A stretch of 32,836 nucleotides of DNA from Planctomycetia bacterium (GTDB lineage Bacteria; Planctomycetota; Planctomycetia; Pirellulales; UBA1268): contig JAIOPD010000113.1 in assembly GCA_021414115.1 (NCBI GenBank), positions 1 to 32,836 on the forward strand, written 5' to 3'. Position numbers and translations under genes: made by a program. This document shows positions 4,547-29,596 of this stretch, one piece after another (within the stretch, counting starts at the first letter, position 1; the number at the start of each line of letters is the position of its first letter). The notes beneath the pieces are model-generated. The model had not been told where the DNA came from. It searched no databases and saw only the letters and a program-made list of their open reading frames with translations.

Positions 4547-4567
4547 AGTGTATCGGCCGACACATGG

Positions 4568-5749
4568 TCACGCCACGCGGTGTTTCGTGAGCACCGCGTC
4601 GGTGAGCTTGCCGCCCACGCCGGGAGTGTCGGGCAGCGTGTAGAACCCGTCGACCACGCGGATCGGGTTTTCCCAGATGTCGAACAGCGATTCGTAGCAG
4701 CATTCGATCATCGGGGCGTTGGGCGTGGCCGCGGCGAGCTGGGCGTGCACGTTGTGCTGCACGTTCGTGTGAGGGATCACGGTGAGCCCGTGGGCCCGGG
4801 CGAGGGCCGCCACGTCGAGCCATTCCTCGATTCCCGAGAGCTTCGTCACGTCGGCCTGCACGATGTCGAGGGCTCGGGCGTCGATGTAATCACGGAAGGC
4901 CTGGAGCGTGTAGACCGTCTCCCCGACCGCGATCGGCAGGTCGAGGGCCTCGGCGAGCCGGGCATGGGCCTGCACGTCGAAGGGGTGCATCGGCTCCTCG
5001 AGCCAGGCGATGTCGAACTCCTCGAGCCGGCGGCCCCACACCATCGCCGTCTTCAGATCCCAGACCGTATTCACATCCACCATGAGCCTGGGCTTGTCGC
5101 CGATCGCCTTCCGCACCGCCTTCACCCGCTCGTAATCCTCGCGCGGGTCGGGCCGGCCGAGCTTCATCTTCACGGCGTCGAAACCGCGGTCGAGAATCCG
5201 TTGCATGTCGGCCACGAGTTCCTCGGTGCTCCACGTGAGCCAGCCGCCGTCGGTGTTGTAGGCCTTCACGCGCTGCTTGCACGGGCCGAGGTGCCGCCAG
5301 AGCGGCTGGCCTTCGAGCTTGAGCTGGATATCCCACAGGGCGAGATTCATCGCACACAGGCCCACGCGGGCCACGCCCACGCGGCCGATGAAGTGCGTGG
5401 TCGAGTGCATCGCCTCCATGAGGGCATGGCGGTCGAGCGCGGGCCGGCCGACGATCGCCGGCGCGTAGCACTCGTCGATCATCACCTTCGCGGCCTTGAG
5501 CCCCTTGGAATAGTTCCAGTTGAAGCCGTGGCCCGTGACGCCCGCGTCGGTCTCGATCGACACCTGCACGAACTCGACGGAATCGACGCTCGACTGGCTG
5601 TCGGTGATCGTCCGCTGCCCGAGCGGCACGTCGACGAGCACGGTGTTCACGGCTTTGATGAGCGGCTGCGTTGCCCCCGAGCGCGCCTCCGGACCGCGGG
5701 GGAACACGACCGGGGCGAGCGGCAGCGGCGGGGCTACGGTGTGCGGCAC
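4568..5749 (-). CDS. Mandelate racemase/muconate lactonizing enzyme (enolase superfamily), likely sugar-acid dehydratase
   Basis: The product has 393 residues from the chosen GTG at 5749, which has GGAAGG nine bases upstream. The frame stays open to 6040, but that extension has no similarity I recognise and crosses the divergent promoter region. The enolase-superfamily active site is visible: KMK (Lys194, Lys196), metal ligands Asp225 (MVDVN), Glu251 (WLEEP) and Glu277 (GETVY), and His327 in IPHTN. The mandelate racemase subgroup includes dehydratases of galactonate, gluconate, glucarate, fuconate and others, which yield 2-keto-3-deoxy acids. The DapA-like gene two places downstream could then act on the product. 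It is the first gene of the operon. The first 30 residues are proline-rich and may not be conserved. The substrate is unknown. Confidence 0.9.
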   Translation of the reverse strand: MPHTVAPPLPLAPVVFPRGPEARSGATQPLIKAVNTVLVDVPLGQRTITDSQSSVDSVEFVQVSIETDAGVTGHGFNWNYSKGLKAAKVMIDECYAPAIVGRPALDRHALMEAMHSTTHFIGRVGVARVGLCAMNLALWDIQLKLEGQPLWRHLGPCKQRVKAYNTDGGWLTWSTEELVADMQRILDRGFDAVKMKLGRPDPREDYERVKAVRKAIGDKPRLMVDVNTVWDLKTAMVWGRRLEEFDIAWLEEPMHPFDVQAHARLAEALDLPIAVGETVYTLQAFRDYIDARALDIVQADVTKLSGIEEWLDVAALARAHGLTVIPHTNVQHNVHAQLAAATPNAPMIECCYESLFDIWENPIRVVDGFYTLPDTPGVGGKLTDAVLTKHRVA

Positions 5750-5954: not shown

Positions 5955-5998
5955 TTCAGTGGCACGGGTTGGGAAAGGCCATTCGTCGGGGGTGTGTC

Positions 5999-8900
5999 AT
6001 GCAACAAACAAGTCATTGTTCTTGGTTCATTGCTCGCCAAACCAGCATTGCGGCATTTGCCTATCGCCTCGCGTTTCTCCTCGCAGGCTCACTCGTGCCG
6101 TGCGCTGCCCAGGCGCAGACCTACAGCTGGAACACGACGAGCGGCACGTGGGACACCACGACCGCAAATTGGGCTGGCGACGGCTCGACGTGGACCAACA
6201 GCTCCAGCAACAACGCGGTCTTTGCCTACAGCACGACCTCCGGCACGGTGACCGTCGACGGGAGCATCACATCGGGCACGATCTTCGTCGGGAATTCGTC
6301 GAACAACGGTAACTACACGTTCACCAATGGCACGAGCGGCTCGATCTCGGCGGCGGCTTTCATTGCCAATAGCGCTGTAGGCTCGAAGTTCTCCACGACG
6401 CTTCAGAACCTCGCGCTCACCACCAGCGGCAATCTCTTGGTCGGTCGAGACGCCAGTATGGTCATTGGCGGATCGAGCACGCTCCTCGTGGATGGAACGA
6501 TCGGCGGACAGCTCGGGCCGATCGCCGATGCGAGCTGGGGCGTGCTGACGATTCAGGATAGTGCGGTCGTTACCGCCACAGGGGGCGTCAACGGCAACGC
6601 CGAAGCCTGGTCGCTGAACCTCAATGGCGGAACTCTCTATACGCCGAGCATTCAGGCGTCGGACCGTGAAGGCGGCGGTGATGCAAGACTGACGTTTAAT
6701 GGCACCCGTGTCGTGGCCACCACGAGCACGAGTGCCTTCGTCACCGTCGGCGCGAATTACCTCGCTACCAATTCGGCGCTCGTGAACAGTGGCGGCGCGA
6801 TCTTCGACACCAACGGCTTTGACGTCGGTGTTGCTATCAATCTGAAAAATGGCGTTAGTTCAGGTTCCCTGACGAAGCTTGGTGCCGGCACGCTGACGCT
6901 CTCCGGCACCACCAGTGACTATTCCGGCGGCACCACGATCAATGCCGGCACACTCGTCATGGGCAGTGGCAGCGCCCTGGGCGCAGCGGGGAGCAACCTC
7001 ACCGTCAATGGCGGCACGCTCGACCTCCGCGGCCAAAGCCTCACCGTGGGGCTGCTGACGGGGAGCAGCGGGGGGCTCATTACATCTAACACCGCGGGGT
7101 CGATCATCATCACCGCCTCGAGCGCGAGTTCGGGAGTGTTCGCCGGCTCGCTGACGAACGGTTCCGGCATGTTGGGCCTCACCAAGTCGGGCGCGGGCAC
7201 GCTTAGCCTGACCGGTTCCAATAGCTACACGGGCGGCACGGTGGTGAACGCCGGCGTCCTGTCCGTTGCGTCGTCGGATGCCCTGCCGGGCTGGAATGCC
7301 TCCGGCGAGGTCACCGTGAACTCGGGCGGCCAGGTCGCCGTGGGCAACGCCTTCTCCGATGCCGACGTAACGACGATGCTGTCCACTGGCAGCAACTTTC
7401 GGGCGGGATCCTCTATCGGCTTCGACACGAGCGCCGGCAACCGCACCTACGCCGCCAACCTTGGCGATACGGCCCAAGGCCCCCTCGGCCTCGTGAAGGC
7501 CGGCGCGAACACGCTCGTGGTGTCCGGCAGCAACTCGCACACCGGCGGCACGACGATCACGGCAGGCACCCTGCAGGTTGGAAACATAAGCGCGATCGGT
7601 CCTGCGTCGGGCAGTATCACCCTGAACGGCGGCACGCTTGACCTCAACGGCTATAGCGTCACGGCCGGCCTGCTCAGCGGCGGCACGGCCGGCACGATCT
7701 CGACCAGTTCAGCCGCTGGTTCCACGCTCACTGTGGGCAGTTCGGGCAGCAGCATCTATGCCGGGGTGATCGCGAACGGCTCGGGAACGGTCGGGATCGT
7801 GAAACAGAACGCCGGCGTCCTCACGCTCTCGAATACCGCGAGCACATACTCAGGCGTCACCACGATCAACGGCGGCACCCTGGACGTGGCGCGGCTCGCG
7901 AGTGGCGGTGCCAACAGCAGCATCGGTGCCGCCTCCAACGCCGCTGCCAATCTCGTCATCAATGGCGGCGTGCTCCGCTACACCGGTGCCACCGCGCAGA
8001 GCACCGATCGCCTCGTCACGGTCGGGCTCAATGGGGCGACGTTCGACAGTTCTGGTTCGGCGACCGTGGTCTTTTCGAATATGGGTTCAGTCGCCTTCGC
8101 CGGCAGCGCGAATCGCACCATCACGTTCGCTGGCACATACGGCGCGGGCAACAACCAGTTCGGGGCCTTGATTGCCAATTCGGGCGGCACGACATCCGTG
8201 CTGAAGACCGGCACCGGCACTTGGCTCCTGGGTGTGAACAACGGGCCGAACAACACGTATACCGGCTCCACGACGATCCTCGCCGGCACGCTCATTGGAG
8301 GCGCGTGGAACAACCAGCAAGGCTTTGGCAACACGTCGGCGATATATCTGGGCGACACGTCGGGCACGAACAACGCCACGGTGCAATTCGGCACGGGCGT
8401 CGCGACGGCGTTCACCAGCGTCCCGATCGTCGTGCAAAGCGGCAACACGGGCACGGCGACCATCGTCAACTTCACGAACAATTCGATTCAAGGTTCCGTC
8501 ACGCTTGGTTCCGCCAACTCGAGCGGCAAGAGCGTCGTGATCAGGAACATCGGTGATTTCCGTTGGACGCCCAACTTCAACAACGTCATTCAGGACCCAA
8601 CGGGGCTCGTCGCCGGCACCGCCGGCACCGTGATCTTCGACAATGCCGACACCGCTGGCGACTCGGCGAATTGGAGGATCAACGCTGCCAACACCTTCAC
8701 AGGCGACACGCGGCTGCTGTCCGGCTCGCTGACCGTCAGCAATGCCAACGCTTTCCAAAACAGCACGCTGGACCTGGGGTTTGCCGGTGATACGGGAGCG
8801 GTCGTGTGGAATCAAACCAGCACGCTGGGCGGATTGAAAGGCACCCGGAACCTCGACACGACCGGGAGAGTGCTCAGCATCGGAAACAACAACCAGACCA

Positions 8901-11143
8901 CGTCCTACAGCGGCGTACTCAGCGGGAGTGGCGGCCTTACGAAGATCGGCACGGGCATGCTCACGCTTTCCGGCTCGAACACGTTCACCGGCGCGACGAC
9001 AGTTTCAGCCGGCACGCTGTCGGTCGGACATGCCGCCGCCTTGGGCGCGAGCGGTGGCAACCTGATTGCATCGGGGGGCGTCCTCGACCTGGGCGGCTTT
9101 GGCATCAACCGCTCGGGCACTGTGTCATTCACCGGCGGCACGGTGCGGAGCGGCACGCTGACGAACGACACGGTAGCCTTTGATGGGCAGGCCGGCACCG
9201 TGTCGGCCGCGCTCGCCGGGGCCGCGGGCCTCACCAAGTCGGGCGCGGGCACGCTCAGCCTGACCGGCTTGAACAGCTACGCAGGCGGTACGGTGGTGAA
9301 TGCCGGCGTCCTTGCCGTTGCCTCCAAGGACGGCCTGCCGGGCTGGAACGTCGCCGACAAACTGACCGTCAACTCCGGCGGCGGCGTAGCCGTCGGCGCC
9401 GACTTTGCGGATGCCGACGTCGCCACGATGATCGCCACCGGCAGCAACTTCCGCGCGGGCGCCGCCATCGGCTTCGACACGACCGCCGGTGACCGCACCT
9501 ACACTGCGAACTTCGCCAACTCGCCGCAGGGCGCCCTCGGCCTCACAAAGTCCGGCGTCAACACGCTGACGATGAGTGGATCCAACTCGTACACGGGCCC
9601 CACCCGCATCAACGCCGGCACGGTGGCCTTCACGCATGCCGACAACCAGACGCTGAGCGGCACGATCAGCGGGCCGGGCAGCCTGGCCAAGAGCGGCACA
9701 GGAACGTTGACACTGAGCGCCGCACCCACATTGACAGGTACGGTAACGATCTCCGCCGGCAGGCTCGCGCTGCCTGCGATGAACAGCGGCATCCCCTTCA
9801 CGAGCATCATCGACAGTGGCACGCTCGACACCTCGAACGGCGGCTCGTGGGGCGGCAACACCGTAACGTTTGGGCAAAACGGCGGGACGCTGCAGTGGGG
9901 CGCAGCCAATTGGTTCGGTGCGGGCACGATGAACGTGATCTCGACCGCCGGGGCGCCGACCTCCCAGATGATCGGCACGACGTATCTCAATCTGGGCGGC
10001 GCCACGGTCAACTTCACGGCCAACGGCGACATCAACTTGAACGCTCCGCTTGCCAACGCCGGATCGATCATCAAAGGGGGGACGGGCACGCTCATCGTTT
10101 CGGCAAACGCTCATGGCGGCGGCACGCAGCCATATAACGTATTCGTCGATGCCGGTACGCTTCGGGCAAGTGCGAACGACGCCCTCGCCGGGACAGGGGC
10201 CATCACCTTCCGTGGCGGCACGCTGCAATACAACGCCGCGTCGCCCTCCGACTGGTCATCCAGGATTCGCAATAGCGGCTCGGCCATCGCCGTGGACACG
10301 AACGGCCGATCGATCACGTGGTCAGGGACGATCAACAGCACCAACACGGGCGGCCTGAGAAAGCTTGGCTCGGGCACACTCAGCCTCTCCGGCTCGAACG
10401 CCTACTCCGGCGGCACATGGATCGACGCCGGGACGCTGATCGTCAACGGGGGGTTGGCAGGTGACGTGGTGGTCGCCTCTGGCGCCACGCTCGGCGGCTC
10501 TGGCCAGCTCGGCGACATCCTCTCCGGTGCCGGCACGATCAGCGTGGGCAACAGCCCAGGCATCGGCACCGCGGGCTCGGTCGATCCGTCCCTTGGCACC
10601 GACTGGGTGTTTGAGATCACGGGAACGGCACCGACTTGGAATGCGGGCACGTCGGCAAGCGTGAACGACGTCTTAAGGCTCACCGATGCGACGCCGTTCG
10701 TCAGCAACCTCACGTCGAGCAACATCGTCGACGTCCTCTTCAATCTGGGGGCGACGCCAATCGCGCAGGGCGATTACTTGGGTGGCTTCTTTGTCGACAA
10801 CATGTCGACAAGCGAACTGACGACCGCACTGGCAGGCGGCCAGTTCCGCTACTGGGTGCTGGGCGAGTTCGGTACGGCCGGTGACCAGCAGACATTCAAT
10901 GTAGGCTCGGGTGGCGTGCCCATCACATATTCGCTGCTATCGGCGTATGACTCGAGCCTGGGCGCGAGCTACACGGTCACTGAGCAGACGGGGAACTTTG
11001 GGTCCGCCGATGTTAGCGGTGTCGTCACGCAGTTCATGATCGTCCCCGAGCCCAGCACGGTGATCTTCGCTGGCATCGGTATCGCGATGGCTGGCTGGTG
11101 CCTGCGGAAGCGCCGCCGCATCGCCCACATTCTGAACAAGTAG
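5999..11143 (+). CDS. Giant PATR (autotransporter-associated beta) repeat protein with PEP-CTERM anchor
   Basis: The 1714-residue product starts at ATG 5999, behind GGGGG; the TTG at 5969 in the same frame is less likely. An N-terminal hydrophobic segment (LAFLLAGSLVPCA) ends in AQAQ, a plausible signal peptidase site near residue 40. The body is built of many Gly/Ser/Thr-rich units of the type KxGxGTLxLSGxNxYTGGTxxNAGTL, the autotransporter-associated beta-strand (PATR) repeat, which folds as a right-handed beta-helix. It ends with VPEPS, a hydrophobic helix and RKRRR, a PEP-CTERM sorting signal read by an exosortase/archaeosortase-type enzyme. No outer-membrane beta-barrel domain is seen, so this is not a classical autotransporter. 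A 399-bp module is duplicated internally. A strong terminator follows the stop codon directly. A surface or extracellular matrix role is inferred. Confidence 0.92.
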   Translation: MQQTSHCSWFIARQTSIAAFAYRLAFLLAGSLVPCAAQAQTYSWNTTSGTWDTTTANWAGDGSTWTNSSSNNAVFAYSTTSGTVTVDGSITSGTIFVGNSSNNGNYTFTNGTSGSISAAAFIANSAVGSKFSTTLQNLALTTSGNLLVGRDASMVIGGSSTLLVDGTIGGQLGPIADASWGVLTIQDSAVVTATGGVNGNAEAWSLNLNGGTLYTPSIQASDREGGGDARLTFNGTRVVATTSTSAFVTVGANYLATNSALVNSGGAIFDTNGFDVGVAINLKNGVSSGSLTKLGAGTLTLSGTTSDYSGGTTINAGTLVMGSGSALGAAGSNLTVNGGTLDLRGQSLTVGLLTGSSGGLITSNTAGSIIITASSASSGVFAGSLTNGSGMLGLTKSGAGTLSLTGSNSYTGGTVVNAGVLSVASSDALPGWNASGEVTVNSGGQVAVGNAFSDADVTTMLSTGSNFRAGSSIGFDTSAGNRTYAANLGDTAQGPLGLVKAGANTLVVSGSNSHTGGTTITAGTLQVGNISAIGPASGSITLNGGTLDLNGYSVTAGLLSGGTAGTISTSSAAGSTLTVGSSGSSIYAGVIANGSGTVGIVKQNAGVLTLSNTASTYSGVTTINGGTLDVARLASGGANSSIGAASNAAANLVINGGVLRYTGATAQSTDRLVTVGLNGATFDSSGSATVVFSNMGSVAFAGSANRTITFAGTYGAGNNQFGALIANSGGTTSVLKTGTGTWLLGVNNGPNNTYTGSTTILAGTLIGGAWNNQQGFGNTSAIYLGDTSGTNNATVQFGTGVATAFTSVPIVVQSGNTGTATIVNFTNNSIQGSVTLGSANSSGKSVVIRNIGDFRWTPNFNNVIQDPTGLVAGTAGTVIFDNADTAGDSANWRINAANTFTGDTRLLSGSLTVSNANAFQNSTLDLGFAGDTGAVVWNQTSTLGGLKGTRNLDTTGRVLSIGNNNQTTSYSGVLSGSGGLTKIGTGMLTLSGSNTFTGATTVSAGTLSVGHAAALGASGGNLIASGGVLDLGGFGINRSGTVSFTGGTVRSGTLTNDTVAFDGQAGTVSAALAGAAGLTKSGAGTLSLTGLNSYAGGTVVNAGVLAVASKDGLPGWNVADKLTVNSGGGVAVGADFADADVATMIATGSNFRAGAAIGFDTTAGDRTYTANFANSPQGALGLTKSGVNTLTMSGSNSYTGPTRINAGTVAFTHADNQTLSGTISGPGSLAKSGTGTLTLSAAPTLTGTVTISAGRLALPAMNSGIPFTSIIDSGTLDTSNGGSWGGNTVTFGQNGGTLQWGAANWFGAGTMNVISTAGAPTSQMIGTTYLNLGGATVNFTANGDINLNAPLANAGSIIKGGTGTLIVSANAHGGGTQPYNVFVDAGTLRASANDALAGTGAITFRGGTLQYNAASPSDWSSRIRNSGSAIAVDTNGRSITWSGTINSTNTGGLRKLGSGTLSLSGSNAYSGGTWIDAGTLIVNGGLAGDVVVASGATLGGSGQLGDILSGAGTISVGNSPGIGTAGSVDPSLGTDWVFEITGTAPTWNAGTSASVNDVLRLTDATPFVSNLTSSNIVDVLFNLGATPIAQGDYLGGFFVDNMSTSELTTALAGGQFRYWVLGEFGTAGDQQTFNVGSGGVPITYSLLSAYDSSLGASYTVTEQTGNFGSADVSGVVTQFMIVPEPSTVIFAGIGIAMAGWCLRKRRRIAHILNK
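7175..7573 (+). repeat. Internal duplicated module, copy 1 (residues 393-525)
   Basis: The 133-residue module starts GLTKSGAGTLSLTG, contains LPGWN, VNSGG, TGSNFRAG and IGFDT, and ends with a second PATR unit. The same module returns at 9227 with identical length (399 bp). The two are clearly more alike than the neighbouring generic PATR units. Confidence 0.8.
9227..9625 (+). repeat. Internal duplicated module, copy 2 (residues 1077-1209)
   Basis: This is the second copy of the 133-residue module, 2052 bp (684 codons) after the first. GLTKSGAGTLSLTG, LPGWN, TGSNFRAG and IGFDT are all kept, with scattered substitutions, and there are no indels over the 399 bp. Confidence 0.8.
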
Positions 11144-12548: not shown

Positions 12549-15227
12549 ATGACGATCGCTCAGGCCGCGAAAGCGCTCGCCGTGGCGGCATGTCTGGCCT
12601 TGGGGGTTTCGGAGCCGGTGGCGCGGGCAGCCCCCCAGCCGGAGATGCCCGTCCGCCATCGTCTGCTCTTGGAACGCCACTGCGTTGGCTGCCACGGGCC
12701 GGAACGCGAGGAGGGCCGGTTTCGGGCTGATTTGTTGCCGTTCGCGATCTCGAGTATCGAGACTGCCGAGACATGGCAGAAGGTACTCAACGTATTGAAC
12801 GCCGGCGAAATGCCGCCGGAGGATGAGCCTCAACTCGAGGGCGGAGCAAAGACAGAGTTTCTCGACGACCTAGCCAAGGTGCTCGTCGTCGCGCGGCGGG
12901 TGTTCGCCGATCAGAACGGCGCGATCACGATGCGGCGGCTCAACCGTCGGGAATACGCCAACACCATCCGCGATCTGCTCGGTGTGGAAGTCGATGCACG
13001 AAGCCTGCCGTCCGATGCGAGCGACACGTCGTTCGACACGGTCGGTTCGTCGCTGTTCATGTCGTCCGACCAGTTTCAGCTCTACATGGAACTGGGTGCT
13101 CGGGCGATCGATGAAGCCTTCTTGCGAGCCACGACACCGAGCACCGTCCAGAAGCACCGGTTGCAGCCAGAGGAGGCGGAGAACAAGTCACGCCAGGAGG
13201 AGCTTCAGCGGCAGGTGAGCATCCAGAAGCGTTTCCGGCTCTGGAAGCAGGCGGTCGATGCCGCGGCTGCGCGGCCGGAGAACCATGCCTCGGCCGCCGA
13301 GATCCGCAGCCGGCGGAAGGATGACCCGCGAGGGCTCTACCTCGATTGGGCAAAAATCGATGATGCTCCGTCACCTGAGACGTTCGGATTTCCGGATGCC
13401 GACGATGCGTTTCACCACGATGGACAGTGGAACCTGTTCATTCCGATGAACACCGACTACCTAACGCGGCCTGAGACCAAGGACGGCGTGTTGCTCACGT
13501 CCAACAGCCGGATCGTGGCGCAGGTGCCGGCCGGCTGGCCGGGGGGCGACTACGTTGTTCGCATTCGCGTCGCACGGGCCGGCCCGCAGACGCTGATGCC
13601 CTCCCGCTCCGACACGAAGCCCTTCGTGTCGGAGCCGGCCGATCCAAGCCGCTGCTTTCTCGACGTCCTCGGCTGGGGCGGCCCGCCCACCTCGCTCGCC
13701 GGCCATCAGGTCACCGGCACGATGGAACAACCCGAGGAATTCACGTGGACGATGCGTGTGGATACCAGCGGGGCGCGGCACTTCCAACTCCGCGAGCGTG
13801 GTGACGAGGAACAACGGCCGGCAGTCCTCGCACAGCGATCGCGTCGAGGACCTGGATTTGGCGTCGATCCCGCGATCTGGGTCGATTGGGTCGAGGTCGA
13901 GGGGCCGTTTTATTCCGAGCGGTCGCAGGCACGGTTTGCCGAGCTGAAATCGCTCCTCGAACGGTTCGACGCGAAGCAACTCGACGCTCGGACATTTATC
14001 GCGACGTTTGCCACCGACGCGTTGCGAGGCAGGCAGCCGACGCCGGAATTTCTCGACCGCCTCGCGGCGCGTCATGCGCGGCTCGTGAAGGAGGGTATGC
14101 AGCCGCGGAAGGCCCTCGTGGATTGCCTGTCGATGGTGCTGGCGTCGCCTGGCTTCCTCTACCTCGCCGAGCCGGTGACCGACGGCGGCCACCGCGGGCT
14201 CTCCGACGTGGAATTAGCGTCACGACTCTCCTACTTCCTGTGGAGCGGCCCGCCCGACGCCGAGTTGTTGGCGATCGCGAACGCCGGCGACCTCCACAAG
14301 CCGGATGTCCTGGGCCGACAGTTGGATCGCCTCCTCGCCGACGACCGGGCACGGGCGTTCGTCGAGGCGTTCGTGAGCCAGTGGCTGCGGATGTCGCGGC
14401 TCGACTTCTTCCAGTTCAACACGAAGCTCTACCCGGACTTCAACGCCGGCGTGAAAGAGGCGGCCCGGCAGGAAGTGTACGAGACGTTTGCGCATCTGCT
14501 GCGGCACGATGGCAGCCTCGCGCAACTGCTGCATTCCGACACGGTCATGATCAATGGCCTGCTCGCCGACTACTACGGCATCGAGGGCGTTTCGGGAGAT
14601 GCATTTCGCCCCGTGAGCGTGCCGCCCGACAGCCCCCGCGGCGGGTTGCTCGGTATGGCTGCGATTCTTGCCATGGGGAGCAACGGAGAGCATACGAGCC
14701 CAGTTGAACGAGGGGCTTGGATTCTTAGAAAGCTGCTGCACGATCCTCCGCCACCGGCCCCGGCAAACGTGCCGCAGCTGACAAGGCTGGAAGGTCAGCT
14801 GCTCACGACCCGCGAGCGCATGCGTGCCCACCAGGAAGAGCCCCAGTGCGCCTCGTGCCACCGCAAGATCGATCCCATCGGCTTCGCCCTTGAAAACTTC
14901 GACGCCGTTGGTCGTTGGCGAACGGACGACTTCTACGAGAAAACCGGCGTCGGCCGAAAGACCTGGACGATCGACCCGGCCGGGGCCTTCCACAACGGCC
15001 CGTCGTTCGCGGACTTTCGCGAGTTCCGTGGAATCGTGGCCTCGCGTCAGGAGGCCTTCGCGACCGGGTTCACCGAGGCGCTGGTTGAATACGCCCTCGG
15101 CCGGCCCTGCGGTTTTTCCGACGACGAGCTCGTGAAGGACATCGTGCAGCGGGCCGGATCGAAAGGGTTTTCGATTCGTGAGTTCATCCACGCCATCGTG
15201 CAAACCGAGGCATTCCGGTCGAAGTGA
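12549..15227 (+). CDS. DUF1592 family protein with cytochrome c-like haem site (DUF1587/1595/1592/1588/1585)
   Basis: The 892-residue exported protein has a signal peptide ending around VARAAP (residues 20-29). A cytochrome-like motif CVGCH follows (Cys45, Cys48, His49). A DUF1587 region holds MRRLNRREYANTIRDLLGV. A long middle region is followed by DUF1595 (about 500-555, with CLSMVLASPGFLYLAE), DUF1592 (about 557-680, with LSDVELASRLSYFLWSGPPD), DUF1588 (about 700-780, with RGGLLGMAAI and SPVERGAWILRKLL) and a C-terminal DUF1585. A second CASCH motif is at 767-771. This order is standard for large planctomycete proteins encoded beside DUF1552 genes. The function is not established; a periplasmic redox role is suggested by the haem motifs. 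The ATG at 12549 has GGAG upstream. Confidence 0.93.
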   Translation: MTIAQAAKALAVAACLALGVSEPVARAAPQPEMPVRHRLLLERHCVGCHGPEREEGRFRADLLPFAISSIETAETWQKVLNVLNAGEMPPEDEPQLEGGAKTEFLDDLAKVLVVARRVFADQNGAITMRRLNRREYANTIRDLLGVEVDARSLPSDASDTSFDTVGSSLFMSSDQFQLYMELGARAIDEAFLRATTPSTVQKHRLQPEEAENKSRQEELQRQVSIQKRFRLWKQAVDAAAARPENHASAAEIRSRRKDDPRGLYLDWAKIDDAPSPETFGFPDADDAFHHDGQWNLFIPMNTDYLTRPETKDGVLLTSNSRIVAQVPAGWPGGDYVVRIRVARAGPQTLMPSRSDTKPFVSEPADPSRCFLDVLGWGGPPTSLAGHQVTGTMEQPEEFTWTMRVDTSGARHFQLRERGDEEQRPAVLAQRSRRGPGFGVDPAIWVDWVEVEGPFYSERSQARFAELKSLLERFDAKQLDARTFIATFATDALRGRQPTPEFLDRLAARHARLVKEGMQPRKALVDCLSMVLASPGFLYLAEPVTDGGHRGLSDVELASRLSYFLWSGPPDAELLAIANAGDLHKPDVLGRQLDRLLADDRARAFVEAFVSQWLRMSRLDFFQFNTKLYPDFNAGVKEAARQEVYETFAHLLRHDGSLAQLLHSDTVMINGLLADYYGIEGVSGDAFRPVSVPPDSPRGGLLGMAAILAMGSNGEHTSPVERGAWILRKLLHDPPPPAPANVPQLTRLEGQLLTTRERMRAHQEEPQCASCHRKIDPIGFALENFDAVGRWRTDDFYEKTGVGRKTWTIDPAGAFHNGPSFADFREFRGIVASRQEAFATGFTEALVEYALGRPCGFSDDELVKDIVQRAGSKGFSIREFIHAIVQTEAFRSK

Positions 15228-15271
15228 CACGAACGATTATGCCGTCAGTACACCACCAGGAGATTTTCACC

Positions 15272-16594
15272 ATGTCGCCCTGCCGCCACTCACCGCGTGT
15301 CGATTCCCGCCGCCGGTTCCTGCGATCTGCCACGGGGCTGGTTGCCGTTCCTGCTCTCGAGTCGCTCGGTTTTCGCCGGTTTGCACGGGCAGCGGAACCG
15401 GCCCGGCCGCCGAAGCGAATGGTCTTCCTTGGCATCGGCTTCGGTGTGACGCAGGAAACCTGGTTCCCGAAGACCGACGACATCGGCCCGGGCTACACGC
15501 TTCCGGAAGGGCTCGCCCCGCTGGCCCACCACAAGGCCGACTTCACGCTCGTGCAGGGCTGCACGCACAGGTTTGCCAGCGACCCGCATGGCGGCAGCAC
15601 ATTCTGGCTCACCGGCGCGAATCAATACGGAGCCGCCGGGAAGAGTTTTCACAACTCGATCTCCGTGGACCAGGTCGCGGCGAGTGAGTTCGGCCGGGAG
15701 ACTCGGTTCAACTCGATCCAATTGAATGGCAGTGAGCCGAATCTCGACGGGCCCGGCCATGGCGCTGGTCTGTCGCTGGCCTGGGATGCCGGCGGCAAAC
15801 CGGTGGCGGGCTACAACAGTCCCGTGATCGCCTTTCATCGCCTCTTCTCTGCAGAGGAGGTGCCGCTCGAACAGCGGCAGAAGATGCTTGCCGACGAACA
15901 GAGCGTGCTCGATGACATGCTGGAGGATGCCCGCAGCCTGAAGCGCGGCTTGAACAAGGCCGACGGTGAAAAGCTCGACGAGTATTTCGAGAGCCTCCGC
16001 GAGATCGAGACGCGGCTGGCAAAGGAGGAGCGGTGGCTGGGGAAGCCGAGGCCGAAGGCCCTGCTGCCTCAGCCTGGCGAAGGACTCGTCGGCCGCGACG
16101 AGATTCGGCTGATGTACGACATCATCGTGGCGGCACTCCAGACCGATAGCACGCGAGTCGTCACGTTCCGCCAGCCCATCAAGCATCTGCTCACGAGCCT
16201 CGGGATCAAAGTCGCCTCGCACGACATGAGCCACTATCACCCTGGCGGCCGGATGGAGGCCTCGCAGAAGCGGGATCTCGTGCAGAGTGAACTTCTGGCG
16301 AAGCTGCTCGACGCGATGAAAGCCACGAAGGAGGCCGACGGATCGAGCCTCTTCGACCACACGACGCTCGTGTTCGGCAGCAACATCCGTTCGATCCACT
16401 ACCTCGATAACTGCCCGACGCTCATCGTCGGCCGCGGGGCCGGCGTCACGCTCGGCAGTCACATCGTGATGCCGAAGGACACGCCCCTGTGCAACGTGTG
16501 GCTCACGCTGCTCAAGGGCTCGGGTGTTCCGGCGGAGTCGTTCAGCGACAGCACGGGCGTCATCAAGGAACTGGCGTCTTCGGAGCCCGCGTGA
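15272..16594 (+). CDS. DUF1552 family protein, Tat-exported
   Basis: The 440-residue product starts at ATG 15272, which has AGGAG nine bases upstream. The frame also opens at GTG 15224, overlapping the previous stop, but the downstream start has the better signal. The N-terminus holds SRRRFLRSA followed by a hydrophobic segment, a twin-arginine signal. The rest is a typical DUF1552 protein with GLSLAWDA, RQPIKHLL, DMSHYHPGG and a C-terminal NIRSIHYLDNCPTLIVG segment. DUF1552 proteins are almost always encoded next to DUF1592 genes in planctomycetes and are related to the sulfatase-like DUF1501 group; the activity is unknown. The Tat signal implies export of a folded, perhaps metal-containing protein. 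It is the last gene of this rightward run. Confidence 0.93.
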   Translation: MSPCRHSPRVDSRRRFLRSATGLVAVPALESLGFRRFARAAEPARPPKRMVFLGIGFGVTQETWFPKTDDIGPGYTLPEGLAPLAHHKADFTLVQGCTHRFASDPHGGSTFWLTGANQYGAAGKSFHNSISVDQVAASEFGRETRFNSIQLNGSEPNLDGPGHGAGLSLAWDAGGKPVAGYNSPVIAFHRLFSAEEVPLEQRQKMLADEQSVLDDMLEDARSLKRGLNKADGEKLDEYFESLREIETRLAKEERWLGKPRPKALLPQPGEGLVGRDEIRLMYDIIVAALQTDSTRVVTFRQPIKHLLTSLGIKVASHDMSHYHPGGRMEASQKRDLVQSELLAKLLDAMKATKEADGSSLFDHTTLVFGSNIRSIHYLDNCPTLIVGRGAGVTLGSHIVMPKDTPLCNVWLTLLKGSGVPAESFSDSTGVIKELASSEPA

Positions 16595-22931: not shown

Positions 22932-24203
22932 TCAGCGGAGCCGGCGGAGGAACCACCAGCCGGCCATGAGTTGCACGAGCAAGACAGCCAGCCCGTTCCG
23001 CGGGTCGTGCGTGATCGCCTGCACGGCGCCGAAGGCAAGGCTGGCCACGAAGCCGGAGAGCTTGCTGCCCACCTGCATCAGGCCGAAGGTCACACCCGAG
23101 CGGCCCTCCGGGGCGAGCGCCGCGATCGACGCCCGCAGCACGCTCTGGATGCCGCCGAGCACGAGGGCCAGCAGCACCGCCAGGCCATAGAGCTGGGCGG
23201 GCGTCTCGATGAACCAGGCCAACACGAGCACGGCCACCCAGCCGCCGAGGCAGACGGTCGCCGTGGGCCAGCGGCCGAACCGCGTGGAAAGCCAGCCGCA
23301 GCCAAGCGCGCCCGGCAACGCGACGGCCTGCACGAGGAGCACGAGCCGCACGAGGGCCGGGCCATCGAGGTCGAACCGCTCGAGGGCGAGACTCGAAAAC
23401 TGCGCGATCGCGGTCTGTACGGCGCCGAGGGCGAGCATCGTCCCGAGCAGGACGCCGCCGAGATGTCGAGGCACGTCGATGGCGTCGGGCTGGGCGAGGC
23501 TCCGCGCGAAGGCGAGGAGTTCACGGCCCGACGTCGCCGCGTGCCGTGCTCGCTCGCCGTCGCCGAAACGAGCGATCATCGCCGGGAGCGAGAAGGCGAT
23601 CCACCAGGCGGCCGTCAGTGCAAAGGCCAGCCGCAGGCCTCCGGCCGCCGTCAGGCCGAGGCGGTCATGCGCCGCGACGACCGCGGTCGCCGCCACCAGC
23701 GCGATCGCGCCGCCGGCGTAGCCCGCCGCAAACCCGTAGGCCGAGAGCCGGTCGGCATCGCGCTCGCCGGCGATCCGAGGGAGCAGGCTGCCGGTGAAGA
23801 CCTGCGCGAGATCGAAGCCGACGCAGGCTGCCACGATCGCGAGCACGACGGCGAGACGTGCGACAGGAGGTGCCAACGCCAGCGCGATGAGCCCCCCTGC
23901 CCCGACGAGCGTGCTCGCAAGGAGCGCCCGCTCATGGGCATGGCGGCGATCTGCCCAGGCGGCTGCCCAGGGAGTGAGCACGGCCGAGAGGAGCATGGCC
24001 GCCGCGAGCGTCCACGCCCAGACGACGCCGCCGGACAAGCCCCAGCCGCCAGCGGCGAAGACGACCCTCTCGACGTAGGCCACGACGAGCGTGATCAGCA
24101 CGGTCGAGAAGCCGCTGGCCGCCCAGTCGAGCAGGATCCAGGCGGTGCGGGCGAAGCCGACGGGGTCGCGAACGTTCACACCCTTCATCAGTCGCAGAGC
24201 CAT
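22932..24203 (-). CDS. UMF1/Atg22-like major facilitator transporter
   Basis: The 423-residue polytopic membrane protein has about twelve hydrophobic segments. The opening WILLDWAASGFSTVLITLVV matches the W(I)L-DWA-SAFST signature of the UMF1 (Atg22-like) MFS branch. The cytoplasmic loop AAWADRRHAHE fits the usual loop 2-3 motif. The central LARFGDGERARHA loop separates two six-helix halves, the second starting about DVPRHLGGVL. Substrates of bacterial UMF1 proteins are mostly unknown. The frame begins at ATG 24203, overlapping the acyltransferase gene by 16 bases; ATG 24188, which overlaps its stop as TGATG, is an equally possible start. Neither has a clear ribosome binding site, so translational coupling is likely. 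It is the last gene of the leftward cluster. Confidence 0.87.
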   Translation of the reverse strand: MALRLMKGVNVRDPVGFARTAWILLDWAASGFSTVLITLVVAYVERVVFAAGGWGLSGGVVWAWTLAAAMLLSAVLTPWAAAWADRRHAHERALLASTLVGAGGLIALALAPPVARLAVVLAIVAACVGFDLAQVFTGSLLPRIAGERDADRLSAYGFAAGYAGGAIALVAATAVVAAHDRLGLTAAGGLRLAFALTAAWWIAFSLPAMIARFGDGERARHAATSGRELLAFARSLAQPDAIDVPRHLGGVLLGTMLALGAVQTAIAQFSSLALERFDLDGPALVRLVLLVQAVALPGALGCGWLSTRFGRWPTATVCLGGWVAVLVLAWFIETPAQLYGLAVLLALVLGGIQSVLRASIAALAPEGRSGVTFGLMQVGSKLSGFVASLAFGAVQAITHDPRNGLAVLLVQLMAGWWFLRRLR

Positions 24204-25333
24204 CGGAGGATTGATTCGGGTGTCAACGCGTTGCTGCGGTCAATCCGCAGGAAGACCGCGGTGGCGGCGGCGAGAAACACGAAGGCAAGCCCCACGGCCA
24301 CGCTGGCCGGCACCACATTCTGCCACAAAGCCGTGGGCTCGCCCGTCGTCGCGAGTCCGGCGAGCCACAGGGGCCAGATGTGGACGACGTGATGGAGCAG
24401 GTAAATGGAGAGCGAATGTCGGCTCAGTGCCCCGGCCCAGTCGAGAAGACGAGGATGCCTGTCGTCCGCGCGGCCCGTCATGCGAAGATCGACGGTGCGA
24501 TGCAGAAAGGTGGCGGCGAGGATGGCACCACCGAGCGTGCCGAGCACATAGCTCGTCGACGCGGGGAACATCATCCACGCCTTGGGCGTGGTGACGAGGC
24601 CGGCCGGGAGCAGCGGTCGCACGAGGACCGTGGCTGCCGACGCCAGCACGAGCGCGGCCCCGATCAGGGCCGGCCGCGTCCGGCGGGAACCATCCGCGGC
24701 AGTGAAAATCAGCGGCGCCGCGAGAAACCCCGTCAGCGGAAAGAGAATCCAGGGAAAGAGCGGAAAGTATCCGGTCGCCAGGTAGCCGAGCACGACGTCG
24801 CCGAGCGTCAACTCATAGTCGAAATACCCGTTGCTCCAAAAGTCGGCGTAGCCGGCGATCAGCCGCAGCACCGGCGCAAGTGCGAGAATCACGCCGCAGG
24901 CGAGCAGCGGCACCACGGACGGCAGCCGCCGCACGAGGTCGAGGACGATCAACGAGGTGCCGATCAACGTGAGGATGTCCCAGTTGAAAATATCCTCGGG
25001 CAGCCAGACCAGGACGTTGAAAGCGAGTCCGAGCAGGATCAGAAACAGACCGCGGCGGACCGTGGCCTTGGAGGTGGCCTCGTCGTCGCGACCGCGGCGT
25101 TCTCGGGCATCGGCCCAGAGCCGATAGCTCACGCCCGACAGAAACGTGAACAGCGGTGCGGCAAACCCCGTGGGGAGCCACCAGTAGCGGTAGGCTCCCA
25201 GGAACGTGCCGCCATCGGACCCGTAGGTGCCGGAGAGGTTTTCTGCGAAGTGCACGATGACCATCAGCACGATGGCGACCGCCCGCAGGATGTCGATCGA
25301 CGGCTGCCGCGCCGCGGTGGTGGCCGGCTTCAT
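24188..25333 (-). CDS. Polytopic membrane acyltransferase-like protein (DUF1624/HGSNAT type)
   Basis: The 381-residue product starts at ATG 25333, overlapping the upstream stop as ATGA; the longer open frame upstream is an unrelated extension. RQPSIDILRAVAIVLMVIVHF in the first helix, followed by TGFAAPLFTFLSGVSYRLW, is typical of the DUF1624/heparan-alpha-glucosaminide N-acetyltransferase-like family. Some features also resemble acyltransferase family 3. About ten transmembrane segments are visible, with LSIYLLHHVVHIWPLW near the end. Such enzymes transfer acyl groups across the membrane to sugars or polysaccharides. The family's usual His in the first helix end appears as VHF. Tight overlap with both neighbours indicates co-translation. 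Substrate unknown. Confidence 0.82.
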   Translation of the reverse strand: MKPATTAARQPSIDILRAVAIVLMVIVHFAENLSGTYGSDGGTFLGAYRYWWLPTGFAAPLFTFLSGVSYRLWADARERRGRDDEATSKATVRRGLFLILLGLAFNVLVWLPEDIFNWDILTLIGTSLIVLDLVRRLPSVVPLLACGVILALAPVLRLIAGYADFWSNGYFDYELTLGDVVLGYLATGYFPLFPWILFPLTGFLAAPLIFTAADGSRRTRPALIGAALVLASAATVLVRPLLPAGLVTTPKAWMMFPASTSYVLGTLGGAILAATFLHRTVDLRMTGRADDRHPRLLDWAGALSRHSLSIYLLHHVVHIWPLWLAGLATTGEPTALWQNVVPASVAVGLAFVFLAAATAVFLRIDRSNALTPESILRWLCD

Positions 25334-26115
25334 GTCGCCCGCGCCGCGAGGAGGTCCACCGTCAGCAGAATCACTTCCGCGGCGAGGAGCACGATCAGCA
25401 CCCACTCGAGCGTGGCGTGCCGCCGCGACGTCGCGCACTCGCTGGCGCGGTCACCGCAACCGGTGTAGACCCGCTCGAGGAGGTCGGCCTGATCGACCGC
25501 CGACTCGAGCCGCTCGACGATCCGGGTGCGGTCGCGGAGCCGCTCGCCGAGCTGACCGCTCAGCGTTGGCGGCTGGGGGGCAGGCCGCTGCACGGCCGGC
25601 GCGAGCAGGGCAAGCCGCCGTCTCAGCGAGACCGACTGGCCGAATCTCGCGGCCAACTCGCCACGCCGCGGCAGCGACCGCTCGTCAAACTGGAAGGCCA
25701 GCGGAGCGTCGGCATCGACGTGGGCCAGCGTTTCGGCGACCCGTGATTCGATGTCGCGGAGCTCCGCGTCGTGGCCGGCGAACTCAACCACCGCCGCCCG
25801 CATCTGCGGCAGGCGATCAGCGGGACCGATGATGGCGGCCCGCCGCTGCGTCCAGACCACGTGCAGGCCGTAGAGCGGAACCACGGTCGGCGGGTGGGCG
25901 TCGCGGCCGGTCGCCCACGCGGTCGTCCGGGCCACGAGATCGGCCATCTCGGCATCGTGGGCCGCGACATCATCGGCGTCGGCCGCGTCCCGGGCGAGAA
26001 TCGCAAGCTCGAGCATTCCGGCGGCTCCGAGCGGAAGCCGCTCGATGACGGCGTCGGCAGGCAGACCCTCGGCCAGCATGGGCGGATCGGCGAGATCATG
26101 AGGAGTGGTGAGCAT
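25330..26115 (-). CDS. DUF155/RMD1-like protein with C-terminal membrane anchor
   Basis: The 261-residue protein starts at ATG 26115, preceded by AAGGGAA; the frame extends further upstream, but that part overlaps the amine oxidase gene. The N-terminal two-thirds is soluble: acidic, Ala-rich, with LEL-type strands, then GPADRLPQMRAAVVEF and a DAELRDIESRVAETL helix. The C-terminal third holds long helices (GERLRDRTRIVERLESAV) and ends in a single transmembrane helix, LEWVLIVLLAAEVILLTVDLL. The helical region followed by LEW-IVxLLxxEVxL at the extreme C-terminus is the layout of DUF155/RMD1 (YagE-like) proteins. The similarity is by pattern, not strong identity. The role is unknown. The gene sits 22 bases behind the oxidase and overlaps the acyltransferase. 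Confidence 0.6.
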   Translation of the reverse strand: MLTTPHDLADPPMLAEGLPADAVIERLPLGAAGMLELAILARDAADADDVAAHDAEMADLVARTTAWATGRDAHPPTVVPLYGLHVVWTQRRAAIIGPADRLPQMRAAVVEFAGHDAELRDIESRVAETLAHVDADAPLAFQFDERSLPRRGELAARFGQSVSLRRRLALLAPAVQRPAPQPPTLSGQLGERLRDRTRIVERLESAVDQADLLERVYTGCGDRASECATSRRHATLEWVLIVLLAAEVILLTVDLLAARAT

Positions 26116-26137
26116 GCGATTCCCTTTTCGGGCCCGG

Positions 26138-27508
26138 TCATTCGCCGCCGTGGGCCGCCAGCCACCCGGCCACGTGGGCTGCCGAGTCGAGCACGCCATT
26201 GAGCGTCGAGTCGAAGAGATAGTCTCCCACAACGAACAGATTTGGGTGCGCGACAGGCTCCGGCTGGTGACGCCTGTCGAGACTGCGGGGCCGCCAGCCA
26301 CCCGGCAGGCCGCTCACGGCGCCCGTCCAACGGTGCACACGGGCCTCGATGAGCCGCGAGCCGGCGTCGCCGAACGCCGCCGGCAGGCTGTCGAGCACCC
26401 GGGCGACGAGCGTCTCGTCATCGAGTGCGGCCATGGCCACGGCGGCCTCGCCTCCGAGCAGCCAGCCAAGTACGCCGTGCCGCGGGGAGGGTTCACGGGA
26501 CGACTCGTCGTAGAGGCAGCAACCGCCAAAGGCGTCGAGCATCGCGAAGGAGCCGTCGATGGAACCTCGCCAGAACGGCTCGTCGAAGAGTGCCGTGACA
26601 CGCAGGTAGTGGGCCGGATGATCATGTTCTTCGCAGTGTCGTTGCACTGCGGCGGCAAGTCGCCCCTTCTCGAAACCAACCCCGGCGAGATGCTGCAGCG
26701 GCAGGGCGAGCACCACGGCATCGAAGTCGGTCGCGCCGGTCTCGCCGCCTGCCTGCCAGGTGATGCGAAGCCGCTGCGTTTCACCGGTGCCGACGTGCGC
26801 GACCCGTGTGCCCAATCGCTTGGTGGCATCGATGCGGGAGACGAGCGCCTCAATTAGTCGATCGTTACCCCCTGCGATGGCGTAGAGACGCATGTAGGCG
26901 GGGTCGTTCATCAGATAGTTTTGCAGGCCGTACGACACGCTCGTGAGCGCGGGCTCGGTCGCGAGATCGCTGTGGATGAGCATCTCCACGTACCGCCGCA
27001 CCGCGGGGTGACGGATGCGAGCGAGCGTGTCGGTAAATGTCCCGGAGACGACGGGGAGTCGATCATCCGACAGGTAAAACTCCCGCGGCGTCATGCCGCT
27101 GCGGGAGCGGATGTCGAAGGCGAGCAACTCCCGCCGGGCCTCGGCCCCCAGCGACGCGGCGATGTCGTCGAGATTCGAGAGCGGCGTGCCGTCGATGATC
27201 AGCGACGTGCCGCCGAGCGGCGTGGTGGGGAGACCGAACTCGGCCACCAGGTCGCGAAGCGGATCCTCGCCGACCGGCGTGTAGTCATAGAGTTCGGCGG
27301 CCCCGGCCTCATATCGAACCGGTGCGGCGGCGAACGAGGGGGTGAGAATCTTGCCGCCGAGCCGGTCACTCGCCTCGAAGATCGTGGTTGTGATCGGGCG
27401 GCTCGCGGACCGCTGCAGAAACAAGGCGGTCAGCAGCCCGCCAGGACCGCCGCCGACGATGGCGACGCTCGATGCCTGTCCCGGCCGGTTCCCTGGCTGT
27501 GCAATCAC
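26138..27508 (-). CDS. FAD-dependent amine oxidase/desaturase-like oxidoreductase
   Basis: The 456-residue protein starts at a GTG at 27508. It has the Rossmann FAD-binding motif VAIVGGGPGG (residues 15-24), then FEASDRLGGKI (45-54), the second nucleotide-contact motif of the flavin amine oxidase/phytoene desaturase group. Near the C-terminus NLFVVGDYLFDSTLNGVLDSA is the FAD-binding fingerprint in which the flavin-contacting Gly-Asp is followed by a substrate-side helix. Relatives oxidise amines, protoporphyrinogen or carotenoids; none of these is indicated by context. There is no signal peptide. The DUF155-like gene follows 22 bases after its stop, and the small membrane-protein gene ends 45 bases before its start. 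Confidence 0.87.
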   Translation of the reverse strand: MIAQPGNRPGQASSVAIVGGGPGGLLTALFLQRSASRPITTTIFEASDRLGGKILTPSFAAAPVRYEAGAAELYDYTPVGEDPLRDLVAEFGLPTTPLGGTSLIIDGTPLSNLDDIAASLGAEARRELLAFDIRSRSGMTPREFYLSDDRLPVVSGTFTDTLARIRHPAVRRYVEMLIHSDLATEPALTSVSYGLQNYLMNDPAYMRLYAIAGGNDRLIEALVSRIDATKRLGTRVAHVGTGETQRLRITWQAGGETGATDFDAVVLALPLQHLAGVGFEKGRLAAAVQRHCEEHDHPAHYLRVTALFDEPFWRGSIDGSFAMLDAFGGCCLYDESSREPSPRHGVLGWLLGGEAAVAMAALDDETLVARVLDSLPAAFGDAGSRLIEARVHRWTGAVSGLPGGWRPRSLDRRHQPEPVAHPNLFVVGDYLFDSTLNGVLDSAAHVAGWLAAHGGE

Positions 27509-27553
27509 GATAGACGTTGAACGGTCAGGCCATCGCGGAGTTGCGGCCGGGCC

Positions 27554-27805
27554 TCACGCGGGGGGAGCCCAGAGATGAAGCGTGCGTTCGGTCGGCACCC
27601 CATAGCGAACCTCGATCGGCAACTCGGCCGGATCGGCGGCAGTTCCGTCGATGGGCTTCAAGGCCGTGACGGCCATGCGAGCGGTGTCGGCAAGTGGGCC
27701 GCGGTTGGCGAACCAGACCCAGCCGCTGAAGCCGATGATGGCGAGCACGGGCAGGATGGCATGCAGGGGATGCGGGCCCCAGAAGCCGGGGGTGGAGGAT
27801 CGCAT
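27554..27805 (-). CDS. Small single-pass membrane protein, unknown function
   Basis: This is an 83-residue product from the ATG at 27805, which has GGAAGAG at suitable spacing; the frame is open a little further upstream (ATG at 27853). After RSSTPGFWGPH comes one hydrophobic segment (HAILPVLAIIGFSGWVWFA, about residues 14-32). A polar tail then includes DTARMAVTALKPIDG and ends YGVPTERTLHLWAPPA. I recognise no family. Placement between adenine deaminase and the amine oxidase, in the same orientation and with normal spacing, supports it as a real gene. Confidence 0.6.
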   Translation of the reverse strand: MRSSTPGFWGPHPLHAILPVLAIIGFSGWVWFANRGPLADTARMAVTALKPIDGTAADPAELPIEVRYGVPTERTLHLWAPPA

Positions 27806-27928: not shown

Positions 27929-29596
27929 TCAGTCGAAAAGCTCCACGGGGCGGAAGGCCTCGACGTCAAAGAGCCCCTGCGGCCCGAGCTTGAGCGCGGG
28001 GATCACGAGCAACGCCATGAAGGCGAGCGTCATGGAGGGGGCGGCGAGCCGTGACCCAAGGGCCTTGGCCCGCCGATCGATCTCGGCGTAGGCGGCGGCC
28101 ACTTCGGCGCCTGGGCGGTCGGACATCAGGCCCGCGATCGGCAGCGGCAGGATGGCGTCGTCCCCACCGCCAACGACCGACAGGCCCCCCTTGGCCGCGA
28201 TCACGAGGTTCACCGCGCGGGCCAGATCGGCGTCGCTGGTGCCGACCGCCACGATGTTGTGGGAGTCGTGCGACACGCTCGATGCGATCGCACCCGCTGT
28301 CAGCCCGAAGTTCCGCACGAGCGCCACGGCCGGCGGTCGGTCGTCGTATCGGTCCACGATCGCGATCTTGAGCACGTCGTCGGCGGGATTGGCCTTCAGG
28401 AAGCCATCGACGATATGCGGCCGGGTGCGGAGCGAGCCGGTCACCAGTTGGCCGTCGAGGGCCTCGATCACCCGCACCATCCGGGCGGCATCGGCCGGAG
28501 CGACACGGATCTCGAAATCGGCCGGCCGCTTTGGAGTGGCCGCGAACTGGTTGGGCCGAGCCGATTCGAGTCGGGGCCATGTCGTCACGCCGTCCACCGC
28601 GGCCAGCACGCCATCGACGAACACCCGACGGATCCCCAGGCCAGCCAGATCGTTCACTTCGAGAAAGTCGGCGGGATCGCCCACTTGCAGGAGCCCCACG
28701 TCGAGGCCGTAGTGTCGCACCGGGTTGACCGTCGCCGCCTGGAGCACGTCGAAGAGATCGCTCCCACGAGCGACGGCCCGGCGGACGAGCTGGTCGATGT
28801 GGCCGACGACGAGCTGGTCGGGATGCTTGTCGTCGCTGCAGAGCATGCAGTGCTCGGGGTGGGTGTCGATGAGGCTCGCCAGCGCGTCGAAGTTGCGGGC
28901 CGCCGACCCTTCACGGATCAGGATCTTCATGCCGAGGGCGATCTTGCCGAGCGCCTCGTCGAGTGCGAAGCACTCGTGGTCGGTGGAGATGCCGGCCGCG
29001 GCGTAACTGGCCGCTGCGGCGCCGCGGAGCCCGGGCGCGTGACCGTCGATCGGCTTGCCGCGTGCCTGCGCCGCGGCGAGTTTGGCAAGCACCTGCGGAT
29101 CCCCGGCGATCACGCCGGGATAGTTCATCATTTCCGAGAGGTAGCCGATGTCTGGCCTGTCGAGTAGCGACGCGACACCGGCCGCGTCGATCGTCGCCCC
29201 CGCGTGATCGAAGATTGTCGCCGGCACGCACGACGGCGCCCCGAAGTGAAACTTGAAGGGCGAGCGCCGGGCGTCGTCGAGCATGTATTCCACACCGGGG
29301 ATGCCGAGCACGTTGGCGATCTCATGGGGGTCGGAGACGGTGGCCACCGTGCCGTGGGCGACGGCCAGCCGCGCAAACTCCGCGGGCGGCAGGAGCGAAC
29401 TCTCGACATGCACGTGGGCATCGACGAAGCCCGGGAGAAGCCAGGTGGCATGCGGCCGGGGATCGTCCGAGATCGCCTCGATCCGTCCGGCGGCGATGGT
29501 GAGCGTGGCCGGCCGGATGCGACGGGCGACGGGATCGACGAGGTTAGCCGAGATCTTCCCCGGAGCGGCATGCGGCTGCGGCGCGGCGTCGTGCAT
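27929..29596 (-). CDS. ade: Adenine deaminase
   Basis: The 555-residue enzyme of the adenine deaminase family (amidohydrolase superfamily) converts adenine to hypoxanthine and ammonia. It shows the first metal site FVDAHVHVESSLL (His61, His63, Glu65), then SDPHEIANVLG, DGHAPGL, ISTDHECF, CSDDKHPD and VNPVRHYGLDVG. The C-terminal family-specific domain holds VSHDSHNIVAVG and GGLSVVGGG. Length and motif order are normal, and there is no sign of damage. The ATG at 29596 has AGGAT upstream. The next gene in the same direction begins about 124 bases after its stop, so it may head or stand apart from the downstream cluster. On the other side the FabZ-like gene diverges, with starts about 100 bases apart. 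Confidence 0.95.
   Translation of the reverse strand: MHDAAPQPHAAPGKISANLVDPVARRIRPATLTIAAGRIEAISDDPRPHATWLLPGFVDAHVHVESSLLPPAEFARLAVAHGTVATVSDPHEIANVLGIPGVEYMLDDARRSPFKFHFGAPSCVPATIFDHAGATIDAAGVASLLDRPDIGYLSEMMNYPGVIAGDPQVLAKLAAAQARGKPIDGHAPGLRGAAAASYAAAGISTDHECFALDEALGKIALGMKILIREGSAARNFDALASLIDTHPEHCMLCSDDKHPDQLVVGHIDQLVRRAVARGSDLFDVLQAATVNPVRHYGLDVGLLQVGDPADFLEVNDLAGLGIRRVFVDGVLAAVDGVTTWPRLESARPNQFAATPKRPADFEIRVAPADAARMVRVIEALDGQLVTGSLRTRPHIVDGFLKANPADDVLKIAIVDRYDDRPPAVALVRNFGLTAGAIASSVSHDSHNIVAVGTSDADLARAVNLVIAAKGGLSVVGGGDDAILPLPIAGLMSDRPGAEVAAAYAEIDRRAKALGSRLAAPSMTLAFMALLVIPALKLGPQGLFDVEAFRPVELFD

Follow-up and report, generated by a model that had tools for sequence, protein, structure and literature searches.

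The window analysed here is a stretch of 32,836 nucleotides from a Planctomycetia bacterium (contig JAIOPD010000113.1). It carries neighbouring genes for a flavin amine oxidase-like enzyme, for a protein of 261 residues with a remote likeness to DUF155/RMND1 (the middle protein) and for a transmembrane acyltransferase. It was found that these three genes, called the trio below, are a conserved, tightly coupled, operon-like unit, which occurs in five families of the phylum in the same order and on the same strand, its genes often overlapping or nearly touching. We favour the reading that the trio is a membrane-tethered unit for the oxidation and acylation of polyamines or other amines over one of lipid or pigment export, and give it a little less than an even chance. 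The trio lends itself to testing, it spans several families of a phylum whose cell biology is little understood, and a link between the middle-protein family and spermidine synthase genes (speE) gives a route to its function.

The original prediction had proposed a gene-neighbourhood survey of the DUF155-oxidase-acyltransferase order, and such a survey places the order well beyond the genome of the window. The prediction has thus passed its own check, in which an order confined to this genome would have counted against it. The middle protein was detected in 33 of the 72 genomes of the window's family (f1). One of these (G009, locus L064) was dropped from the count, being a 20-bit match with no trio gene, and 32 loci were kept. 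The acyltransferase gene lies directly after the middle gene in all 32, and the oxidase gene lies ahead of it in 31; the one locus without it, L049, starts at a contig end. In the window's genus (g1) the middle gene and the acyltransferase gene overlap by 4 bases at 13 of 15 loci, and the junctions between oxidase and middle gene in the family are mostly -52 to +38 bases, with four loci at 131-276; the starts behind both sets of figures were chosen by script. Outside the family, searches with profiles of the trio-type middle protein and of its divergent relatives gave 14 strong loci with an oxidase upstream, and the full trio is present in 13 of them (L106-L109, L114-L116 and L174-L179; families f2, f5, f35 and f90). 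The remaining locus, L110, has the oxidase and the middle gene, no acyltransferase match within the 18 kb fetched, and a DUF6666 gene about 0.7 kb downstream. An oxidase at E<=1e-60 is found in 27 of the 246 genomes of the order; 26 of the 27 carry a trio-type middle gene, and no genome outside the 27 was found to have one. The 27th (G066) was a candidate for an oxidase without its partner, which is explained by the contig end, since the middle gene begins in the final 198 bases of this contig. No more than 5-10 candidates per genome were scored in the profile searches of the phylum and the order, and absences in them are soft. Weak matches in the phylum (G134, G306, G311, G411 and G426; 20-24 bits) and in the order (about 20-31 bits, such as G011, G057 and G060) were excluded from the counts. 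Plasmid searches with the trio middle gene and oxidase gave no match. One single-contig genome of 9.0 Mb (G658) has two copies of the trio (L175 and L176), about 1.9 Mb apart; G684 is another single-contig genome with the trio, and the two make it likely that cultured isolates carry it.

The polyamine link of the trio is one of guilt by association, and it is suggested by sequence relatives of the middle protein. With the trio profile five divergent relatives (L111, L112, L113, L117 and L118) were found, which have no oxidase or acyltransferase of the trio kind beside them. The trio profile and the divergent profile align with 99.9 % probability (E 1.3e-33, 221 columns), which makes them one family, aligned over nearly its whole length. 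The gene directly upstream of L112, L113, L117 and L118 encodes a spermidine-synthase-like aminopropyltransferase; these four score 230-244 against the NCBIfam polyamine aminopropyltransferase, for which the cut-off is 260. The best solved relative of the SpeE-like copy at L118 is a Thermus aminopropyltransferase, and plant thermospermine synthase comes fourth. A plasmid search with the L118 protein led to a plasmid of Phyllobacterium sp. A18/5-2 (L173), on which the relative follows spermidine synthase with a 4-base overlap, and the Phyllobacterium copy led to Rhizobium sp. BG4, where the gene order is speD-speE-relative. A gene with Spermine_synth (PF01564) is directly upstream in six of the seven divergent relatives (L112, L113, L117, L118, L173 and L180), the linked SpeE proteins scoring 144-159 bits. 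An S-adenosylmethionine (AdoMet) decarboxylase gene is also upstream at five of these six loci (L113, L117, L118, L180 and, in broken form, L173). The speE-linked relatives occur in Planctomycetota and in Rhizobiales. A search for more relatives of this type among 23 genomes from the order of G168 and 9 from that of G373 gave only the known ones; the pair is therefore sporadic. The likeness to speD-speE operons is that the same tail-anchored family stands directly behind speE in 6 loci; where those operons have speD and speE, the trio has genes for the oxidase and the acyltransferase. At L173, positions 4201-4720 hold an unannotated speD-like reading split over two frames; the Rhizobium sp. 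BG4 copy is whole.

By profile comparison the middle protein is a remote relative of DUF155/RMND1. The DUF155-like label of the original prediction holds as remote similarity, which hhalign places at 94.8 % probability (E 5.5e-8) against four DUF155-type sequences, mainly over the C-terminal half and in an alignment of modest quality. It does not hold as membership of PF02582, to which none of 30 members has a match at E<=1. No Pfam match at E<=0.01 was found for these 30 proteins, and the window's own copy matches nothing in Pfam or NCBIfam at E<=1. The only PF02582 match of the genome lies elsewhere, on contig C117, and its holder, L001, is one of the four sequences in the hhalign comparison set. 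The profile of the divergent relatives matches the DUF155 type at 92.2 %, and in plain hidden Markov model searches it is mainly the last 50-65 positions that match DUF155. A hydropathy scan found a single hydrophobic segment, at the C-terminal end. The middle protein is presumably tail-anchored with its body in the cytoplasm. It resembles the RMND1-Sif2-Rmd1 (PF02582) proteins in that its C-terminal half and terminal hydrophobic helix align with theirs, and it differs from them in lacking a PF02582 match. Weak matches of the trio profile at L076, L078 and L104 are long DUF155-type proteins. At L076 (1489-2598) and L078 (592-1668) these represent a second, long DUF155-like family (about 360 residues) in other Planctomycetota, with the same hydrophobic C-terminal ending. 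The surroundings of L065, the true DUF155 gene of the genome, were read by eye and nothing polyamine-like was seen.

The oxidase belongs to a known enzyme family. It matches Amino_oxidase (PF01593) at E 1.4e-30 and 107.4 bits, the cut-off being 19.8. The GGGPGG start of its flavin adenine dinucleotide (FAD) binding region is invariant in 26 of 26 sequences, and its C-terminal motif is VGDYLFDSTLNG. When the oxidase profile was compared with PDB, the top matches were 4-methylaminobutanoate oxidase and L-amino acid oxidases, with putrescine oxidase lower and aligned over profile positions 9-382. Most of the best 60 of 103 matches are amine, amino-acid and histone-lysine oxidases, LSD1 included, each of the matches being partial or modest. 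The domain, the FAD motif and these matches are what the trio oxidase shares with the flavin amine oxidases.

The third protein of the trio matches HGSNAT_cat (PF07786) at E 2.2e-26; PF07786 is matched by all 30 acyltransferase members and PF01757 by 18 of them. A DxxR-x10-H motif is present, with D14, R17 and H28 invariant in 30 aligned sequences. Passages in PMC12423673 describe DxxR with a histidine ten residues after the arginine as the motif of AT3 enzymes, and describe these acyltransferases as handing acyl groups to an extracytosolic acceptor. The domain matches and the motif are the likeness to the TmAT superfamily (HGSNAT and YeiB; AT3 enzymes such as OafB), and the difference is that the trio enzyme comes with an oxidase and a tail-anchored protein as partners. 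The superfamily has a membrane fold of ten helices; a crude hydropathy scan of the trio enzyme gave several separate helices, not ten, and no PDB sequence match was found at E<=1.

A shared membrane partner alongside an amine oxidase and an acyltransferase points to a membrane-tethered amine module, with polyamines as the best-supported substrate. The middle protein would be a cytoplasmic, membrane-anchored partner of amine-handling enzymes, and it may bring the soluble flavin oxidase up to the membrane, next to the acyltransferase. The oxidase would then dehydrogenate an amine, for which a polyamine is the likeliest candidate (for example homospermidine, putrescine or an acylated form), and the acyltransferase may pass an acyl group through the membrane onto an amine or another acceptor at the outer face. 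The outcome could be that amines are detoxified, salvaged or converted to a component of the envelope. The UMF/ATG22 transporter, present in part of genus g1, may carry the substrate or the product there. Passages in PMC4334474 and PMC12254169 report sym-homospermidine in several planctomycetes and putrescine or spermidine in others. Eukaryotic polyamine back-conversion (SSAT and N1-acetylpolyamine oxidase) likewise combines an acetyltransferase with a PF01593 oxidase in a single amine pathway; its acetyltransferase is, however, a soluble GNAT enzyme, and it has no tail-anchored partner.

A wider proposal is possible, and we regard it as rather doubtful. The unnamed bacterial family of RMND1/DUF155-like tail-anchored proteins could be a dedicated partner of polyamine enzymes, and in Planctomycetota and Rhizobiales it would take the third place in speD-speE operons. 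In Planctomycetota it would also join a flavin polyamine oxidase and a transmembrane acyltransferase in a membrane complex for polyamine oxidation and acylation, and by extension the RMND1 fold might be a polyamine- or cation-handling module. We know of no biochemical role established for RMND1. If the proposal is true, a bacterial relative locked into polyamine operons makes a specific role testable for the wider RMND1 fold. RMND1 is a DUF155 protein, and its variants are a cause of mitochondrial disease in humans (PMC7564844).

A number of observations weigh against a polyamine role of the trio. Protoporphyrinogen oxidases, too, are among the PDB matches of the oxidase profile (35 bits), and among the NCBIfam scores of the single oxidase sequence protoporphyrinogen oxidase is first and HpnE third, far below cut-off. 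The position ten residues before the Trp of the PFW motif, which we take from MAO and LSD1 to be that of the catalytic Lys, is here an invariant Arg (Arg303), a difference from the flavin amine oxidases. The printed alignments with solved amine oxidases, among them those of a C-terminal oxidase profile with PDB, leave this position uncovered. AlphaFold models of the oxidase and the middle protein (two sequences each) had predicted local distance difference test (pLDDT) values of 32 and 40 and were unusable. Among the divergent relatives, L112 has speE without speD alongside. At L111 the upstream gene encodes a Rossmann-type protein, whose only match in PDB, to homospermidine synthase, is not significant (E 0.028). 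The fetched trio loci contain no relative of the linked speE, of speD or of the L111 genes. In the family of the window, PF01564 has matches in 36 of 72 genomes (29 over the cut-off), and these are weak, the best scoring 76 bits against the 144-159 of the linked SpeE proteins. SpeD and SpeY/DHS were absent from all 14 f1 genomes tested, in a search that did not take in the HSS and CASDH routes, which are named in a passage of PMC10407285. The f1 hosts may be without polyamine synthesis by SpeD, SpeY or the usual routes. Of the trio-type genomes outside the family, counting G424, 8 of 8 have SpeY and 3 of 11 have SpeD.

The same absence of SpeD and SpeY from the 14 genomes would also fit a middle protein that serves as a general membrane tether and binds no substrate itself. 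In that case the trio would act on some other amine, such as an amino lipid, an amino sugar or a methylated amine, and the link with speE would mean that amine enzymes are tethered alike. A hydrophobic C-terminal segment that follows a body without a recognised domain is what such a tether might look like, and polyamine-synthesis relatives were not found near the trio in the fetched loci. HGSNAT acylates glucosamine, which counts in the same direction. However, six of seven divergent relatives stand beside one enzyme type, aminopropyltransferase, across two phyla, and we consider a generic tether rather unlikely, though next in rank to the polyamine reading.

The original prediction had taken all five genes of the locus as one cluster, which might make a modified lipid, sugar or pigment and export it. 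On such a reading the oxidase would be a desaturase-type flavoenzyme and the transporter the exporter. PF01593 does include phytoene desaturase, HpnE and protoporphyrinogen oxidase; the NCBIfam scores of the oxidase agree with this, and the window has both an acyltransferase and a transporter. The transporter itself is a clear match to PF11700 (ATG22; E 1.9e-28, 99.9 bits against a cut-off of 24.1), and the small protein has no Pfam or NCBIfam match at E<=1. In tblastn searches with the window proteins, the transporter was found on the same strand in 11 of the 32 family loci, the small gene in 6 and an adenine-deaminase-like gene in 8, counts that are lower bounds, several contigs being short. 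All loci with any of the three are in the window's genus, and none of the three was found at the 14 loci outside the family. The trio part of the proposed cluster is thus conserved and tightly coupled, whereas a five-gene system is not supported, the transporter and the small gene being patchy. With a transporter that is patchy and lies outside the conserved unit, export is therefore not in the core. No evidence was found for a lipid, sugar or pigment product; the divergent relatives of the middle protein point to polyamine genes, and amine and amino-acid oxidases lead the oxidase matches in PDB (best 60 of 103). Flanking genes were clustered by similarity and their functions partly assigned, with which a scattered pathway is compatible; the lipid, sugar or pigment reading is improbable. 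When the picked genes of 46 trio loci were clustered, no family beyond the trio recurred in more than 10 loci, the most frequent being the transporter (10 loci), the adenine-deaminase-like gene (7) and one other family (7); the gene picker misses some genes, and these counts are lower than those of tblastn. Quite improbable is a purely nutritional or detoxifying amine catabolism with no envelope product, in which the oxidase degrades, the acyltransferase neutralises and the transporter imports: the lack of SpeD and SpeY in the 14 genomes makes exogenous amines a plausible substrate and part of the genus has the transporter, but beyond the trio and the transporter no gene, for instance one for aldehyde processing, occurs in more than 7 of the 46 loci (functions partly assigned), and AT3 enzymes use an extracytosolic acceptor according to passages in PMC12423673.

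The original prediction knew of no named system of this composition. We likewise found neither the trio nor the link to speE described in open-licence literature on DUF155, DUF1624, RMND1, aminopropyltransferases and planctomycete amine oxidases and polyamines. The enzyme families are known; the middle-protein family is found in neither Pfam nor NCBIfam.

All five frames of the window locus were confirmed as real and on the minus strand (Table 1). The core frames are not due to chance, because the three core genes have homologues in several families that are conserved in sequence, order and strand. The frames and junctions given in the original prediction were borne out. The spacing is 45 bases between the small gene and the oxidase gene and 22 bases between the oxidase gene and the middle gene, and the middle gene and the acyltransferase gene overlap in ATGA (25333/25330). 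The acyltransferase and transporter genes overlap by 16 bases if the ATG at 24203 is the start, and meet in TGATG, as predicted, if it is the ATG at 24188. A scan for the sigma-70 consensus gave no hit on the minus strand, which is weak evidence in a planctomycete host.

Table 1. Positions of the trio and its neighbours in the window (aa, amino acids).
Feature	Position	Strand	Description
Small protein	27805-27554	minus	83 aa; one hydrophobic segment (hydropathy scan); local addition upstream of the trio
Flavin amine oxidase-like enzyme	27508-26138	minus	456 aa; GTG start; PF01593; trio gene 1
DUF155/RMND1-like, presumably tail-anchored protein	26115-25330	minus	261 aa; hydrophobic C-terminal segment 239-257; trio gene 2
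Transmembrane acyltransferase	25333-24188	minus	381 aa; HGSNAT_cat / Acyl_transf_3; trio gene 3
UMF1/ATG22-type MFS transporter	24203-22932	minus	423 aa; PF11700; lineage-specific addition downstream
Adenine deaminase-like gene	27929-29596	minus	identified by eye; upstream neighbour, outside the trio

Elsewhere in the window, two overlapping frames at 12549-16594 resemble by eye what we take to be paired planctomycete genes of the DUF1592/DUF1552 kind. A repeat-rich frame of 1724 residues lies at 5969-11143 and has, as read by eye, autotransporter-like repeats and a PEP-CTERM-like end.

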